The notes beneath the pieces are model-generated. The model made no database searches. It had not been told where the DNA came from and saw only the letters and a list, made by a program, of their open reading frames with translations. Source: Methanosarcina mazei S-6 (GTDB taxonomy: Archaea > Halobacteriota > Methanosarcinia > Methanosarcinales > Methanosarcinaceae). From it: 64,000 nt of DNA. The DNA lies in NCBI RefSeq assembly GCF_000970205.1, contig NZ_CP009512.1, positions 2,170,001 to 2,234,000 on the forward strand, given 5' to 3'. Position numbers and translations under genes: made by a program. This document shows positions 17,932 through 33,129 of this stretch, piece after piece. Positions within the stretch are counted from its first letter, which is position 1, and each line of letters begins with the position of its first letter.

Positions 17932-18354
17932 TTATTTTTTCTCTCCCAGCACGCAGACCCTGATTGTCCCGGCACTTGTCCGAAAATCCGTACAGATATC
18001 CGGAGCAACATATTTTTTCTCAAAATCTTCCTCTTTTTCTTTGAGCTGGCAGAAATACTCACCTTCAAGCCGGAACTTTTTGAAGACCACACATGTTTCA
18101 CAGAGGCATTCGTCTTTTTTTCCTTTTCCGGTTTCCATGCCTCCTCGAGCACAAAACATCCCTGCACCGCCCGGATAAGAAGAACAGTATTTGCAGAGGC
18201 AGGCTTTCAGGTGGTGGTATGAACCGCAGATGCCAAAATACCTTCCATATTCTTCTCTGGCTCCCTGGATAACATCTTGCCTGTTCCCAGAGAATTCTTC
18301 TACTTCTGAAGTTCCTATGTTTTCTATATTTTTGGATGGTATCTCCGAGACCAG
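17932..18354 (-). CDS. Cys-rich DUF2769-like protein with unusual start
   Basis: About 140 residues if read from the ribosome-binding site AGGGGGAG at 18358-18365. Two Cys clusters are visible: 'KACLCKYCSSYPGGAGMFCARGG' (split here as CLCKYC and FC) and 'ECLCETCVVFKKF...YFC', the pattern of DUF2769, a small methanogen family thought to bind metal or a cluster. The conserved first cluster lies upstream of the first ATG (18159), so that ATG is internal. Upstream to the stop at about 18385 no ATG, GTG or TTG exists in frame; ATT at 18357 or CTG at 18354 stand behind the ribosome-binding site. It lies between mtbC and the PAS gene, pointing toward mtbC. Confidence 0.6.
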   Translation of the reverse strand: MVSEIPSKNIENIGTSEVEEFSGNRQDVIQGAREEYGRYFGICGSYHHLKACLCKYCSSYPGGAGMFCARGGMETGKGKKDECLCETCVVFKKFRLEGEYFCQLKEKEEDFEKKYVAPDICTDFRTSAGTIRVCVLGEKK

Positions 18355-24439: not shown

Positions 24440-24550
24440 TTCCCCTTTAAATTATTTAATCCCCCAGAATTTCCCCGGCTTTTTAAAGCAGCTGGTTAGC
24501 GTCCCATGCTGAATCTTTCCCAAAACCCTGATTTACGGGAGTCCAGTAAT

Positions 24551-27181
24551 ATGAGGTTAAAAAATGTCCCCCTGAAACCCAAGCTGGTTATTTTTATTGT
24601 TGTTGGAGTTTTCCTTATCCTTGCCGTATCCACTGCTGTTATAATAGGGACCGTGACCTCTCAGGAAGAAAAGCTTGCATATGAGAAATCTATCGAGATG
24701 GCAGGCAATTATGCAAATCAGTTTGATGCACAGATGGAGGCAAACCAGGCTATTGCAAGGACACTTGCCTGCACCATGGCTGAGTACGGGTCCCAGGACA
24801 GGGAAGAGGCAATGAGCATTATCAAAAGGATACTTAACGAGAACCCACAGCTTATAGGCGTCTATCTGGGTTATGAGCCGGATGCTTTTGACGGCAGGGA
24901 TAAAAACTATATTAATGCTCCAGGGCACGATTCAACAGGCAGGTTTGTACCTTACTGCAACAAAATCAATGGACCTGTGATCATCGAACCTCTTGTCCAT
25001 TACGATTCCTCTGATTATTATCAGCTTCCAAAAACGACCGGAAAAGATACCCTGACAGAACCTTATTTTTATGAAGGAATATTCATGGTAAGCTATGACT
25101 CGCCTATTTTTAAAAACGGGGAATTTGCAGGGATAGCCGGTGTGGACGTCCCTCTTGAGTACGTGGACGATGTAGCAAGCAGTATACGCACTTTTGATAC
25201 CGGATATGCTTTCATGGTAAGCAATACGGGAATTTTTCTCTCTCATCCCACACAGAAAAACTGGATTGGAGAAAAAAGCCTCTCTGACTTTGATGTGGAA
25301 GAGATAAAAAATGCTGCATCTGACATCCGCGAGGGGATAGGAGGGCATGTTGAAATTAAGGACCCTATAACAGGCAAAACCGTGATAATGTTTTACGAGC
25401 CCGTAAAAACAGGAGATTTTTCTTTCGTGCTTGTCGTTCCCAAAGAGGAAATGCTTGCCGGAGTGAAGGACCTGAGGGACCGGCTTCTCATCATCTCTGC
25501 CATCTCAATCCTGTTTATGGCTGCTCTCGCTCATATGATTGCCAGGTCCATTACAAGACCTATTGATGATATTGTTGATGATTTCAAAAATATCGCACAG
25601 GAGGCTGTTAAAGGGAAGCTGGATGTGAGGGCAAATACCGATGTGGAAGTTGATTTTCAGGAGATACCTACGGGGTTGAATGAGATTCTTAAAGCTGTTG
25701 TTGTCCCTGTGCGGGAAACCATACGGGTCACCAATGCCCTTGCGAAAGGGGAATTAAAAGAAAGGGTTAATGTGGATGTCCAGGGAGAGTTCAGGGAATT
25801 GGGGGACACTCTTGACAAGTTCTCCGAGACCCTCAATATGATTATAGATGACTCCAATGCTGTCCTGACAGCTTTTCAGAACTATGATTTTAAGCGTGAG
25901 ATCTCCGTGCACGGGCAGGGGGATTTCAAGCTCCTTACGGATGGGATCGAAGAGACTCGAAGGGTACTCGACCTTATCACCATGCAGAGGAGAGTAGCGG
26001 AAAAAGCCCTGCTGGATTATGCAATGGAGCTGGAACATTCCAACAAGCTTAAAGAAGAGATGGAAAGGGTCATTAACAACAGTCCTGTAATTGTGTTTTT
26101 ATGGAAATACGAACCAGGCTGGCCTGCGGAATTTGTCTCGGAAAATGTTAGCCTTTTAGGATATGAAGTTGAAGATTTTATTTCAAAGAGAGTTTTCTAT
26201 GAAAATATCATACATCCGGAAGACCTCCAAAAGATCCAGGAAGAGCTTGCCAGAAACGTGGAGTCAGGATGTAATCTCTATAATTCGGAATACAGGGTTC
26301 TGACCAGATCCGGAGAGGTCCGCTGGGTGGATGAAAGAACGTTTATCCACAGGGATGAGAGATGCGAAGTCCACCTCCAGGGAGTTATCCTTGACGTAAC
26401 CGAACACAAAAAAGCTGAAGAAGCCCTCCTTCAGATAGAAGAGATTCATAAGAAAGAGATCCACCACAGGATTAAAAACAACCTCCAGGTAATCTCAACC
26501 CTTCTCTATCTCGAATCAGGCAATTTCAGCGATGAAAAGGTAATCGAAGCCTTTATAGAGAGCCAGCACAGAGTCAAGTCAATGGCCCTCGTGCATGAAA
26601 AACTCTACCAGTCCGAAGATATGGTAAGTGTGGACTTTGCAGATTATATCAAAGACCTCTCAGACTACCTCTTCCATTCCTATTCCGTGGGCGATGGAAA
26701 CGTGAGTCTTAGGCTTGATATTGAAAACATATTCCTCGGAATGGACACTGCGGTTCCCCTGGGCATTATTATAAACGAACTGGTTTCAAACTCTCTTAAA
26801 CATGCTTTTTCCAAAGGAGAGGACGGAGAAATTTGCATCCGGCTGCATAGAAACGAAAGAGGTAATCTTTATACAGAAAATTATAATAATGCAGAAGCTA
26901 AAGTGGCTATGAGCGAGAAAACAGACTTTAATGGTATCAGCAGATTACAGGAAGATAAAAAAGCAGAGGACAGAAAAGCAGAGGATAGGCTCACTCTTAT
27001 TGTAAGGGACAATGGCAGAGGCTTCCCTGAAGGTCTTGACTTTAGAGATACGGATTCCCTCGGGCTCCAGCTTGTGACTGCACTTGTTGACCAGATTAAC
27101 GGAAGCATAGAACTTGATACCAGCAGGGGAACCGGGTTCAAAATTATTTTTCAGGAGCTGAAGTATAAAACCAGGGTGTGA
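24551..27181 (+). CDS. Membrane sensor histidine kinase (dCache-HAMP-PAS-HisKA_2)
   Basis: 876 residues from ATG 24551 (GGGAG upstream); an ATG 15 codons earlier is less likely. Same architecture as the kinase at 10806: membrane segment, double-Cache domain ('DSTGRFVPYCNKIN', 'PYFYEGIFMVSYDSPI'), second membrane segment, HAMP, PAS/PAC, 'KKEIHHRIKNNLQVIS' phospho-acceptor and GHKL ATPase ('NELVSNSLKHAF', 'DNGRGFPEGLD'). It differs by an insertion of about 35 charged residues inside the ATPase domain, between 'RLHRNERGN' and 'LTLIVRDNG' (contains AEDRKAEDR). Its stop overlaps a possible GTG start of the receiver gene, indicating translational coupling. Confidence 0.92.
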   Translation: MRLKNVPLKPKLVIFIVVGVFLILAVSTAVIIGTVTSQEEKLAYEKSIEMAGNYANQFDAQMEANQAIARTLACTMAEYGSQDREEAMSIIKRILNENPQLIGVYLGYEPDAFDGRDKNYINAPGHDSTGRFVPYCNKINGPVIIEPLVHYDSSDYYQLPKTTGKDTLTEPYFYEGIFMVSYDSPIFKNGEFAGIAGVDVPLEYVDDVASSIRTFDTGYAFMVSNTGIFLSHPTQKNWIGEKSLSDFDVEEIKNAASDIREGIGGHVEIKDPITGKTVIMFYEPVKTGDFSFVLVVPKEEMLAGVKDLRDRLLIISAISILFMAALAHMIARSITRPIDDIVDDFKNIAQEAVKGKLDVRANTDVEVDFQEIPTGLNEILKAVVVPVRETIRVTNALAKGELKERVNVDVQGEFRELGDTLDKFSETLNMIIDDSNAVLTAFQNYDFKREISVHGQGDFKLLTDGIEETRRVLDLITMQRRVAEKALLDYAMELEHSNKLKEEMERVINNSPVIVFLWKYEPGWPAEFVSENVSLLGYEVEDFISKRVFYENIIHPEDLQKIQEELARNVESGCNLYNSEYRVLTRSGEVRWVDERTFIHRDERCEVHLQGVILDVTEHKKAEEALLQIEEIHKKEIHHRIKNNLQVISTLLYLESGNFSDEKVIEAFIESQHRVKSMALVHEKLYQSEDMVSVDFADYIKDLSDYLFHSYSVGDGNVSLRLDIENIFLGMDTAVPLGIIINELVSNSLKHAFSKGEDGEICIRLHRNERGNLYTENYNNAEAKVAMSEKTDFNGISRLQEDKKAEDRKAEDRLTLIVRDNGRGFPEGLDFRDTDSLGLQLVTALVDQINGSIELDTSRGTGFKIIFQELKYKTRV

Positions 27182-27183
27182 GA

Positions 27184-27648
27184 ATGGCAGAAGGACGAAT
27201 TTTGATTGTTGAAGACGAACATATCGTTGCTATGGGAATAAAGCGTATGCTAAAAAGCCTGGGATACACGGTTACAGGTGTAGCGTCATCCGGAAAAGAT
27301 GCCATAAGCAAAGCCGAAAGTACATTTCCTGATCTCATATTGATGGACATAATGCTTAAAGGTGAACTTGACGGCGTGGAGGCTGCAAAAGAGATAAAAG
27401 AGCGCTTTGATGTGCCCATAGTCTATCTAACTGCTTATTCAGACAGCAATATTCTTGAGAGAGTGAAAAAAACAGGGCCCTCCGGATATATCGTGAAGCC
27501 GTTTGATGAAAAAGACCTTTACAGCAATATCGAAATAGCTCTGCACAGATCCAGGAAAGAAAAAAAGGACATTGAAGAAGGGATTGAAGGAGAAATTGAA
27601 GGAGAAATTGAAGAAGGAGAAATCAAAGAAGTTGAAGAGAAAAAATAA
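27184..27648 (+). CDS. Single-domain response regulator
   Basis: 154 residues from ATG 27184, or two more from a GTG at 27178 that overlaps the kinase stop. A CheY-like receiver: acidic pair 'VEDE', phospho-Asp in 'LILMDIMLKG', Thr in 'VYLTAYSD' and Lys in 'YIVKPFDEKDL'. A Glu-rich tail follows (repeats of EIEGEIEE). No output domain, so it would act by protein contact or in a relay. Coupling to the kinase at 24551 makes it its direct partner. Confidence 0.92.
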   Translation: MAEGRILIVEDEHIVAMGIKRMLKSLGYTVTGVASSGKDAISKAESTFPDLILMDIMLKGELDGVEAAKEIKERFDVPIVYLTAYSDSNILERVKKTGPSGYIVKPFDEKDLYSNIEIALHRSRKEKKDIEEGIEGEIEGEIEEGEIKEVEEKK

Positions 27649-28148: not shown

Positions 28149-28655
28149 ATGCCAGAAGGACGAATTCTAATTGTCGAAGACGAATATATTGTCGCCATGG
28201 GAATAAAGCGCATGCTGAAGAATCTGGGGTACACACTGGCAGGCGTTGCTTCCTCGGGAGAAGAAGCCATTAATAAAGCGGAAAGCAGCTTTCCTGACCT
28301 TGTGCTTATGGATATAATGCTTAAAGGGGAGATGAACGGGATAGAGGCTGCAAAAGAGATCAAAGTACGCTTTGGTATCCCTGTGGTTTACCTGACTGCC
28401 TGTTCGGAAAGCAAAATAGTGGAACGTGCCTGGAAAACGGGACCTTCTGGATATATCGTGAAGCCGTTTGACGAAAAAGACCTGCAAAAGAGCATTGATG
28501 TGGCCATGCGCAGGCAGAGGATGGAAAAAAATGAGCCTGGAAGAAGTTCCCTTAATGCTGAAAATCCCTTAAGGAACCCTGAACATGCTCTCAAAAAAAG
28601 TGAAAAAACGCCCGAAAAACTTTCCGAATCCGTTAAGTGTACTGAACGACTTTGA
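28149..28655 (+). CDS. Second single-domain response regulator
   Basis: 168 residues, GAAGGTG ahead of ATG 28149. Receiver domain with 'VEDE', 'LVLMDIMLKG', 'VYLTACSE' and 'YIVKPFDEKDL', closely similar to the receiver at 27184, followed by a polar Lys/Ser/Glu tail of about 45 residues instead of an output domain. Probably a tandem duplicate; it could serve the unpaired kinase at 10806. Confidence 0.9.
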   Translation: MPEGRILIVEDEYIVAMGIKRMLKNLGYTLAGVASSGEEAINKAESSFPDLVLMDIMLKGEMNGIEAAKEIKVRFGIPVVYLTACSESKIVERAWKTGPSGYIVKPFDEKDLQKSIDVAMRRQRMEKNEPGRSSLNAENPLRNPEHALKKSEKTPEKLSESVKCTERL

Positions 28656-28793: not shown

Positions 28794-30305
28794 TCAGGTT
28801 CCAAGTTCTTTTTCAATGGCTTCGGCTACCGTTTTAAGGACTTTTATTCTGGAATACCTTTTGTCATTTGATTCAACGACAATCCAGGGAGCTCCTAAGG
28901 TGCTGGTTTTCTGAAGCATTTCATTGACTGCGATTTCATAATCGTCCCAGCGGTTCCTGTTCCGCCAGTCATCTTCCGTGATTTTCCAGCGTTTCTCAGG
29001 GTCAGTAAGCCGGCTTTCAAAACGTTCCAGCTGGGTTTCCTTATCTATATGCAGCCAGAACTTCAGGATAATTGCTCCTGAGTCATAAAGTATTTTTTCA
29101 AACTCATTTATCTCTCTGTAAGCCCTTCCCCATTCTTCTTCCGTACTGAACCCTTCCACTCTCTCCACAAGGACGCGCCCGTACCAGCTCCGATCAAAAA
29201 TGGTCATGTGCCCTGCCATGGGGGTTGCACTACAGAAGCGCCAGAGGTACTGGTGGGCTTTTTCATAATCATTTGGAGAACCTACAGGCACGACCCTGTA
29301 AAGCCTCGGGTTAAGCTCTTCAACAAGGCGGTGAATATTTCCCCCTTTTCCTGCAGCATCCCAGCCCTCAAAAACGACAACTGTAGAACGTTTTCTTTTT
29401 AACAGTTCGTACTGAAGGTTTTCAATTTTTTCCTGAAAGAGCTTTTTTGATTCTCTGTACTCTTCCAGGGTAATACTTTTTGACAGGTCTACCTTTTCCA
29501 GGACTGAACCGTCAAGGGCAGGGAGCTTTTCTTTTGCCATGTCCAGGTATTTTATTGTCTGCTCCCCCGGTGTGCGCGTTACTTTTTCAATACATTTCTC
29601 AATCGCACCGGCAACCTTTGACATTATTTTTAAAACTGCAAAGTTCCTGTCATTTGCCTCAATTATTGTCCAGGGAGCGTAAGGCACATCGGTTCTTTCG
29701 AGTATCCTTTCAACAACAGGCAGATATTCTTCATAGCCTTCAATAAATTCAAGGTCTTTCCCGTTTTTATCTTTATATTCTTCAAGAATGAGAGGTATGC
29801 CTCTCTTTTTTATTTCCTTAAAGCGCTCCTTCTGCTCTTTTTCACTGATATGCAGAAAGAATTTGAGTATCAGGTACCCGTCATCCGAAAGCTGTCGCTC
29901 AAAATAGGTCAGTTCTTCGAGCGTTTTTTCGAGAGCATCTTCATTTTTTTCCTTAGCAAATAGCTCAATTACTGCCCTGCTGTACCAGCTCCGATCAAAA
30001 ATTCCTATTCTTCCCCTGACAGGGATCCTGGACCAGAAATGAAGCAGGAAAGGCTTTAATTCTTCCTTATAGCAGGGCCTCCTCATCGTATGGAAATCAA
30101 AGCCTCTCGGGTCCAGGGGAAGTATGAAACGGTTGATGTCCTCTCCCATTCCTGACGCGTGCCAGCCTTCAAAAACAATTATAATGGGTATTTTTAATTC
30201 CCATGCCTTCCGTTGAAGCTCACCCAGCTTAACCTGAAGTGTTTTCATACTCTGCTTGTATTCCCCATTAGTTATTTCCCGGGAAAGGTCAACATTTTCA
30301 AGAAT
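28794..30305 (-). CDS. ppk2: Two-domain PPK2-type polyphosphate kinase / phosphotransferase
   Basis: 503 residues if started at ATT 30305; the first ATG is at 30248. Two PPK2 modules: the C-terminal one has a good Walker A (FEGWDAAGKGGNIHRL) and 'FDRSWYGRVLVERVEG', the N-terminal one a degenerate P-loop (FEGWHASGMGEDINRF) and 'FDRSWYSRAVIELFA'. This is the layout of polyphosphate:AMP phosphotransferases, where only the C-terminal half binds nucleotide; the enzyme would make ADP from AMP and polyphosphate or the reverse. The codons before ATG 30248 read LENVDLSREITNGEYKQS and align with LEKVDLSKSITLEEYRES ahead of the second module, so they are coding. AGGGGG sits 7 bases before ATT. Single gene, no partner. 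Confidence 0.9.
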   Translation of the reverse strand: MLENVDLSREITNGEYKQSMKTLQVKLGELQRKAWELKIPIIIVFEGWHASGMGEDINRFILPLDPRGFDFHTMRRPCYKEELKPFLLHFWSRIPVRGRIGIFDRSWYSRAVIELFAKEKNEDALEKTLEELTYFERQLSDDGYLILKFFLHISEKEQKERFKEIKKRGIPLILEEYKDKNGKDLEFIEGYEEYLPVVERILERTDVPYAPWTIIEANDRNFAVLKIMSKVAGAIEKCIEKVTRTPGEQTIKYLDMAKEKLPALDGSVLEKVDLSKSITLEEYRESKKLFQEKIENLQYELLKRKRSTVVVFEGWDAAGKGGNIHRLVEELNPRLYRVVPVGSPNDYEKAHQYLWRFCSATPMAGHMTIFDRSWYGRVLVERVEGFSTEEEWGRAYREINEFEKILYDSGAIILKFWLHIDKETQLERFESRLTDPEKRWKITEDDWRNRNRWDDYEIAVNEMLQKTSTLGAPWIVVESNDKRYSRIKVLKTVAEAIEKELGT

Positions 30306-33129
30306 TCTTTAGCCCCCTGCTGTTCTTAAAGTGATGATTTTCATTTCTCCATATCGGGAGAAATATTAGACAGACGAAATAACTGATACATTTCAGTTTA
30401 TTATAAAATATATTTTATTTATCATATAGTACAAAGTTTATAATTATATCCAATTATTTTCATGCCTACCTGCCTTTCAGGCCAATAATAAATAGCTAAA
30501 TTAAGATTAAATGTGCTAATTAAGATTATTACACTGATACAAAACATCTATTACAAATATCTAATGTAATACTCCCGCCAATTATTTAAATTTTTAACAT
30601 AGATTGGAGAATGAGATAATAAAAAGAGTTGAATAAAAAATGAAAAAATAATAGGAGATTGTCTAAGACATCAGGAGATTATTTGAGACGGAACAAATTA
30701 ACATGCGCTTAAAATTTTTGTTTGAGAATATTTTTTACCTGAAAAATAAAGAGCAATTTTTCAGCCATTAAAAAGCAGTCAATTTATAAGGATAATGCCC
30801 AAACTTAATTTTATATATTAAACTTAAGGAAAAAATAGTAAAGCTGAGTATTAATTAACCAATATACTTTTTACAGCTATTTTGACTCGCCTGGTCTACA
30901 CTATTGAGACTAAAAGTTAAATTATAAATATAGTTCGATATTAACATATCAAACCTGGGCTTTTTTTAAATATCTTCAAAAAAACAATATATTCTATATA
31001 TTATGTATTTTACATAACTGATCAATTTCAGATCTCAAAATATCCCAAAAAACATACATTAAAAAGAATATGTATTATAATGTGTGTTTATAAATAATTA
31101 CCTACATTCCTATACATAACACATATTGAAATATAATTTTTTATAAGCTACCATAATTTCATTCTTTTTTCCATATTAAACGATTATACTATTTAAAAGA
31201 CATAATTCAGTACATGTGTTAATAATACTTTAATTCATTTATAGGCATTATAATATATACTTACAATAAGATTAACAATTAATGTTATTAAAAATTATCT
31301 TTTTTAAAAAATATTTTGAATTAGATATTTTAAAATATAAAATTAATTTATAATAACTATTATTGAATATATGTAATTAAGATCAATATAATTAGAATGA
31401 CGTCAGCTTTTAGATATATTAAATATAATAAATATAACTTTTTATACATAACTTACAAAATAGGAATATATAATTTATTAAGTAGCTAAAAATTAAGCTA
31501 ATATTAATTATAGATATTTTAGGAGGTTTAATATAAAGAAATATCTGAGAAATAAGCTATAGGCTATTGTATATTACTAAACTACTACTTTTACAGGGAT
31601 TTTTAGCAAAAATATCAAACAATTATGTGCATATTTTGAATTATTATGCTATATTTATAATATATTTTTTTGATCAGATAGTGTAGACTATTTTGTTCAA
31701 AGTAGAGTAAAAACGCATAGAAGAAAAATCGTCCAAAGAAATTTTTTAAAATAATCATGGAATATAGCTAAAAATAACTGACTATTTGCAAATATAACCC
31801 TTAATACCTCTTAATAAAAATCCTATCATTACTTATTCATATAATATGTAGGAATCATCAGGCATATTTTTCAGGATTGTTTTTCCTTACTATTGTTTCA
31901 TAGTTAATAAGGCGGTTATCGGTCAAATATGGCGTATTCATATAGTCCATGGAATAACCGAGTTCACAAAATTGGGTGTTTCGCATAAAATTTCACCTCT
32001 GATAAAATTCATTCACATATGGTATAAGAATAAATTTTTCATTATATCCTGTCTGTTATGGCAGGTCTTTCTCAAAGTTCGGCTTTTAAATCAAGAGCAG
32101 ACGTTATGCATAAAGATAATTATAAGGAGTGTTTAATATTAAAAAATTCAGATTTTGTTTGGAAACATAAATTATAGCATCTAGAAGCAGTTAAAAAGTT
32201 AGGCAAAATTATAAATTCAATAAATTAATTTCACAGAATTCCTTTTATTTTTTAATTTATTTGTATAGACTCGATAAAATTAACTAACAAAATATATTTT
32301 TTATAAAAAAATAATACAATATCAGGGTATTTTTATATATTATGATTTGTACCATGACCTCTACACTATTCAAATTAAAAACATGCTAAAACATATAGAT
32401 AAAAAATACTTAACAATCATAAAAAATATTAAAAATAGCATCTATAAAATATAATAAGGCAAAATATAGAAGGATATAAAAATATTTTGTAAATAATTTT
32501 ATCATTATCAGTTTTTGAAGCCACTACTCAAAAACAAACAGCAACTAACGGTAATATGATAATAATATAACAGTAACACAGTAATTATGCATAGCGAAAC
32601 GATATCTCAAGAGCTTTTAATTTTTGCTTTAAATCAGGAAGGCTCTTTTCAATTATATTCTCATTTTTCAGTTATATTCTCATTTCTTAGTTAGATTATC
32701 CGTTATTGCCAGGCAGCTATAAACAGTTTTTTATTCAGCAGCGGCGGGACCTGTTAGCGAAATCTGATTTTCAGAAGATTTTTTCCTTACAGGAGTTTAA
32801 TAATTAACTGTCAGAGAGATTTTTGTTAAAGGAAATTTTTGATGACGCAGATTTTTATTCATCGAGTATCAGAGATCTGCCATTAAAGGAGAATTAATAG
32901 TGAATTAATAGTGCGAATTTGAATTATAAACAGTGAGAATTTGAACTATAGCACATGTTTGCCCTGAACAAATTTTTATTACATAGTTATTACATGGCAA
33001 ATCTGGGAATTAATCTTTTAAATTTCAAGTAACTTAATATTAATTATTATATTAAACTAAGTTTTTTGTCAGTGTTCTACCTGAGAAATACCACAAAAGA
33101 TATTTTTATACAAGTTTTATGTAACAGAA
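30306..33129. other. AT-rich gene desert
   Basis: About 2.8 kb of very AT-rich sequence between the PPK2 gene and the zinc-ribbon gene. Apart from the 42-codon ORF at 31858-31986 (own entry) I see no gene, no tRNA and no long repeat. Islands of higher GC at 31850-32110 and 32700-32960 could be small RNAs or relics. No replication initiator gene is near. Confidence 0.5.
31858..31986 (-). CDS. Small ORF, 42 residues, strong ribosome-binding site
   Basis: ATG 31986 is preceded by GAGGTG at 7 bases, the same quality of signal as the real genes here. The product starts MRNTQFCELGYSMDYMNTPY and ends NNPEKYA; it is polar and aromatic (five Tyr), with one Cys and no membrane segment. Codons and base content differ from the surrounding AT-rich desert, as if the frame is kept. 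Unknown function; it was found by eye and is shorter than normal gene-calling limits. Confidence 0.5.
   Translation of the reverse strand: MRNTQFCELGYSMDYMNTPYLTDNRLINYETIVRKNNPEKYA

Follow-up and report, generated by a model that had tools for sequence, protein, structure and literature searches.

Predicted AUU initiation of a two-module PPK2 gene in Methanosarcina mazei S-6 and candidate conserved non-AUG starts in the genus

The PPK2 gene and the codons ahead of its first ATG

The window analyzed here, a stretch of 64,000 nucleotides from the genome of Methanosarcina mazei S-6, carries a PPK2 gene on its minus strand (28794–30305). The earliest ATG, GTG, or TTG in its frame is the ATG at 30248–30246, which is the likely choice of a gene finder. 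A sequence-only reading of this DNA had instead placed the start, as very probable, at an ATT codon further upstream (30303–30305), which makes the ATG codon 20 of a protein of 503 residues. That proposal rested on an internal duplication, that is, on the claim that the protein contains two copies of a PPK2 module and that codons preceding the ATG correspond to residues ahead of the second copy.

Both parts of this claim hold. The Pfam family PF03976 (E = 4e-139) matches the protein twice, and alignment of the two modules with each other covers 241 residues with 35% identity (E = 5e-47). The alignment starts right at the ATT codon (ILENVDLSREITNGEYKQS vs VLEKVDLSKSITLEEYRES), and the PPK2 module therefore includes the first 19 codons, those ahead of the ATG. 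The N-terminal module (29556–30305) has the P-loop sequence GWHASGMGE, lacking the lysine found in the C-terminal module (28797–29504), where the P-loop, GWDAAGKGG, is intact. The protein scores 654.7 bits with TIGR03708 (polyphosphate:AMP phosphotransferase), above the cut-off of 547.65, with residues 2–501 aligned to profile positions 1–493, and 392.6 with NF050016 (PolyPhAMPPhtase), below the cut-off of 800; its closest solved structure is PDB 3czp. Based on these matches, we predict an enzyme of the polyphosphate:AMP phosphotransferase type. Class II PPK2 proteins, as represented by TIGR03708 and 3czp, likewise consist of two fused PPK2 modules of which only the C-terminal one has an intact P-loop, and in both modules they possess an N-terminal segment ahead of the first strand, as is the case here. 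Compared with these proteins, the present gene is an ordinary member whose sole oddity is the ATT start.

Read on the minus strand from 30311 downward, the sequence is TAA AGA ATT CTT GAA AAT GTT GAC CTT TCC, and the frame then stays open down to the TGA at 28794–28796. Reading of the frame confirms that the TAA (30309–30311) is separated from the conserved coding sequence by nothing but AGA and ATT. The same TAA terminates a short upstream ORF of 11 codons (MKIITLRTAGG; 30309–30344, minus strand), which begins with the ATG at 30344–30342, is in frame with PPK2, and ends 3 nt before the ATT. This arrangement could mean that the gene is reached through the upstream ORF, either by reinitiation at the ATT or by readthrough of the TAA, and termination–reinitiation is a known mode of coupling in archaea (PMC10666635). 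The upstream ORF, however, is not conserved among the Methanosarcina N-termini compared, its own Shine-Dalgarno (SD) sequence, GGAG, is poorly spaced at 2 nt before the ATG, and reinitiation would itself still employ ATT as the start codon. We consider this route quite improbable; the upstream ORF is probably a chance occurrence, and a role as a termination–reinitiation device is possible. The pyrrolysine codon in Methanosarcina is UAG, not UAA. Pyrrolysine insertion or stop readthrough was rejected because the closing stop is TAA rather than TAG.

Orthologues, selective constraint, and the Shine-Dalgarno sequence

A search of the genus yielded matches to PPK2 in 26 of 31 Methanosarcina genomes, the window's own genome included, genus membership being taken from the grouping of the collection and from the contigs of named relatives. 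Comparison with orthologues, a check suggested by the sequence-only reading, showed ATG at the position of the ATT in all 26 homologous N-termini, which come from 25 other Methanosarcina genomes, and the codons after this ATG read LENVDLS, LEKIDLS, or similar. The outgroups also have ATG there, namely Methanolobus (L005), a Methanosarcinaceae MAG (L006), two Methanomassiliicoccales loci (L007 and L008), and Methanolinea (L012). The non-AUG codon is thus not kept across species and, since the relatives all have ATG, a single base changed (ATG to ATT) in the lineage of the window. The PPK2 orthologue L055 (genome G028) is interrupted by an in-gene TAG, which may encode pyrrolysine or reflect an assembly fault. 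A search of viral contigs revealed no additional copy of the PPK2 start region.

Loss of the ATG could have left the gene with a shortened protein beginning at Met 30248 or could mark the onset of gene decay; the original start codon is gone, an ATG lies at hand at codon 20, and the catalytic C-terminal module would be untouched. The pattern of substitution speaks against this. In pairwise comparisons with the seven nearest species, dN/dS was 0.07–0.11 over 502 codons, indicating strong purifying selection, and codons 2–19 considered separately had pN values of 0.12–0.24 versus pS values of 0.42–0.78. In the second repeat and in PDB 3czp, moreover, the equivalents of these codons form the start of the module. 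The other 24 full-length orthologues agree without exception at 183 residues, and the protein of the window departs from them at two of these, the start and one L-to-I replacement. With constraint extending to codons 2–19, the gene shows no evidence of decay, and the sequence ahead of the first ATG is protein-coding; neither a further disabling change nor relaxation of constraint was seen, which makes a truncated or decaying gene highly unlikely.

The conservation of ATG in relatives bears differently on a sequencing or assembly error, by which the T at 30303 would be spurious and the strain would really have ATG. All 26 other N-termini have ATG, the difference amounts to one base, and the species is represented by a single genome, in which a base-calling error is possible. 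Against this, the genome is complete, being a single contig with a completeness of 99.97%, the PPK2 locus is syntenic with that of other species, and the conserved genes flanking it in the window are intact. An error would also leave unexplained why the same gene has an unusually strong SD sequence. On balance, an error seems unlikely.

The SD sequence, AGGGGG, lies 7 nt before the ATT (30313–30318, minus strand), as had been noted. The three 16S genes of the genome end in GGATCACCTCCT, and pairing of AGGGGG with the genome's own 16S tail (AUCACCUCCU) gives −9.1 kcal/mol, with one G–U pair. This energy ranks second strongest among 27 orthologues, most of which have values between −2 and −6 kcal/mol (typically about −3.8 kcal/mol); in one orthologue (L044), a strong SD sequence is paired with ATG. 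The start region is not more structured than shuffled sequences (z = +1.5), being less structured than most of them. For switches to GUG and UUG, the combination of a weaker start codon with a stronger SD sequence has been reported (PMC5622118).

Taken together, constraint over the whole length, the closed frame, the strong SD sequence, and other non-AUG starts of the genus, described below, support the start at ATT. We therefore regard it as probable that an ancestral ATG became ATT in a gene that is functional, vertically inherited, and translated from AUU. Direct observations comprise the base change, the constraint on the gene, closure of the frame, the SD sequence, and the conserved non-AUG codons of other genes; initiation at AUU, an N-terminal Met, and a lower yield would follow from them. 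The strong SD sequence seven bases upstream would position the 30S subunit at the AUU, with which the initiator Met-tRNA would pair through matches at positions 1 and 2 and a mismatch at position 3. The product would be of full length and begin with Met, probably at reduced yield.

Non-AUG starts elsewhere in the genome

To judge the possibility of a sequencing error, we surveyed a contiguous sample of 464 kb of the window's genome, obtained by adding 400 kb around the window, against 400 kb from each of two relatives. The survey looked for conserved frames in which the start of the relative aligns with a codon other than ATG, GTG, or TTG; the first pass provided 129 usable conserved ORFs. Many ORFs that seemed broken or extended turned out on inspection to be mostly antisense or upstream-extension artefacts, and the inspected candidate frameshifts and stops, which proved to be antisense ORFs, upstream extensions, and a transposase-like remnant, also argue against an error-prone sequence. 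The exceptions among the inspected broken ORFs were this remnant and a SagB-like fragment, the latter being a nitroreductase frame (G000:C1:2105903, minus strand) that lacks the N-terminal part present in G007 and is probably a pseudogene.

One candidate outside the window is a gene for a CooC-like P-loop ATPase (G000:C1:2404924–2405703, plus strand; L131 and L132–L160), of which the frame reads GGG GGA ATT CGA ATA AAA ATA GCA ATC ACC GGA AAA GGC. The putative start, ATA, is found in 30/30 Methanosarcina loci, preceded by AGGGGG or AGGAGG, and a sister genus has it in two loci; in L133, a TGA immediately precedes it. Nine loci from other families of the order (L191–L194, L197, L201–L203, and L210) have ATG at this codon, and in further loci of these families an ATG, once a GTG, stands one codon earlier. 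A protein started from the first ATG would lose the P-loop, GKGGVGKTT. The NCBIfam matches of this protein are to P-loop ATPases only and all fall below the cut-offs, so "CooC-like" is a description rather than a tested assignment. An ATT or ATC two codons upstream was rejected as the start, being missing from the frame in L133, L155, L172, and L173 and too near to the SD sequence.

A gene for an S49-type membrane protease, a name read from the sequence rather than taken from a family-library match, appears to start with CTG (G000:C1:2306905, plus strand; L211, L212–L233, L252, L253, L255, and L258). CTG is present in all 23 genus loci in which the position is readable, with a G-rich SD sequence before it, for example GGGGGAATATT; in L212 and L216, stops located a few codons before the CTG close the frame. 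CTG occurs in four loci of the sister genus, and ATG takes its place in a further locus, L249. The corresponding region in genus g5 (L250 and L251) has no ATG, GTG, or TTG and reads GGGGGT followed by ATC ATT CTG.

Three more genes follow a similar pattern. A NUDIX hydrolase gene (G000:C1:2464066, minus strand; L261–L272) has ATT as its putative start in 12 of 12 species, in several of them with the SD sequence AGGGGGTGA. A redoxin-like gene (G000:C1:2311485, plus strand; L235–L243) has ATC, ATA, or ATT at one and the same codon in seven loci (L235–L240 and L243) and ATG in L242. In an aldo-keto-reductase-like gene (G000:C1:2254343, plus strand), the codon is ATA here and also in G007, with TAA directly before it, and ATG in G009; this start is ambiguous, as there is another ATG five codons downstream. 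A CTG at window position 18354 (minus strand) and ATA codons at 2340561 and 2462457 were dropped, being unsupported by the samples from relatives.

In the window's genome, a GGGGG-type SD sequence precedes the CooC-like, S49-type, NUDIX, and redoxin-like genes alike. Within 22 nt upstream, GGGGG occurs at 5/5 non-AUG starts that had been found independently of the motif, compared with 1/52 conserved ATG starts (Fisher p = 1.4e-6, or 1.4e-5 when PPK2 is dropped), in a small sample of which one of the five, the aldo-keto reductase, is ambiguous; the NUDIX gene was detected through the motif and was omitted from these statistics. The SD energies of the five non-AUG genes are all −9.1 kcal/mol or lower, and −9.0 is reached by 8% of ATG genes. 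Genome-wide, the pattern AGGGGG-N7-ATH showed no excess over a reversed control (70 vs 66) and was therefore rejected as a stand-alone detector of starts. Given this lack of enrichment, the small sample, and the ambiguous case, the motif may contribute to initiation, but by itself it does not specify a start.

Comparison with known systems and significance for the genus

Initiation at AUU on an intact gene has a precedent in Escherichia coli infC, the autoregulated gene for IF3. PPK2 shares with infC the AUU codon and the intact gene, whereas it is not known to bear on initiation fidelity. Another parallel is Staphylococcus aureus, where conserved starts at AUU and AUA, accompanied by extended SD sequences, have been mapped by Ribo-Ret and give reduced yield (PMC13009471). 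The AUU of cvfC1 and the AUA of ccpN and infC in that organism combine such codons with a strong SD sequence, as do the Methanosarcina genes. Conservation across species, a feature of the S. aureus set, is also seen for the CooC-like, S49-type, and NUDIX genes, whereas the PPK2 switch is specific to its lineage. The two cases further differ in that the S. aureus starts were mapped experimentally on a bacterial ribosome with IF3, while for Methanosarcina we have sequence evidence and an archaeal ribosome with aIF1.

Two published observations count against the AUU reading. Among 61,358 ancestral AUG starts, only one had switched to AUU (Belinky et al., PMC5622118), and archaeal aIF1 discriminates against non-AUG complexes (PMC8211752; PMC6237735). 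The substitution at PPK2 is of the same type as that counted by Belinky et al., who worked with groups of close genomes; here it is accompanied by a stronger SD sequence and by other non-AUG genes in the genus. Because aIF1 opposes non-AUG complexes in archaea, the yield from such a start is probably low. Taken alone, the change at PPK2 represents a kind of start switch that is rare yet tolerated.

The main result beyond PPK2 is that conserved AUA, AUU, and CUG codons occur as predicted starts in Methanosarcina: in the 30, 23, and 12 loci examined for the CooC-like, S49-type, and NUDIX genes (those of G001 included), AUA, CUG, and AUU, respectively, were kept in all. The genus seems to employ non-ATG starts routinely, and PPK2 would exemplify a more general practice whereby strong G-rich SD sequences permit a start at AUA, AUU, AUC, or CUG. 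More tentatively, and with somewhat less confidence than doubt, we propose a separate mode of initiation, whereby an SD sequence of the G5 type (AGGGGG, about 5–8 nt before the codon) would hold the 30S subunit in place for AUA, AUU, AUC, or CUG; tens of genes per genome might depend on it, and the ATT of PPK2 might be a recent recruit that sets a low yield. To our knowledge, non-AUG starts beyond GUG and UUG are seldom considered in archaea, and we found no report of AUU, AUA, or CUG starts in Methanosarcina genes in the open-licence literature searched.

If the genus does use such starts, gene finders restricted to ATG, GTG, and TTG miss true protein ends, and first-ATG models omit essential parts of proteins, such as the P-loop of the CooC-like ATPase. 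Methanosarcina would then be a place to study how an archaeal ribosome bearing aIF1 accepts non-AUG codons, and the question would arise whether these starts serve to keep expression low. For work on non-AUG initiation, PPK2 offers a natural ATG-to-ATT switch.

Beside the PPK2 gene, the plus strand of the window carries two adjacent and similar response-regulator genes (27178–27648 and 28149–28655) next to a large sensor kinase (24506–27181), an arrangement that recurs in relatives.
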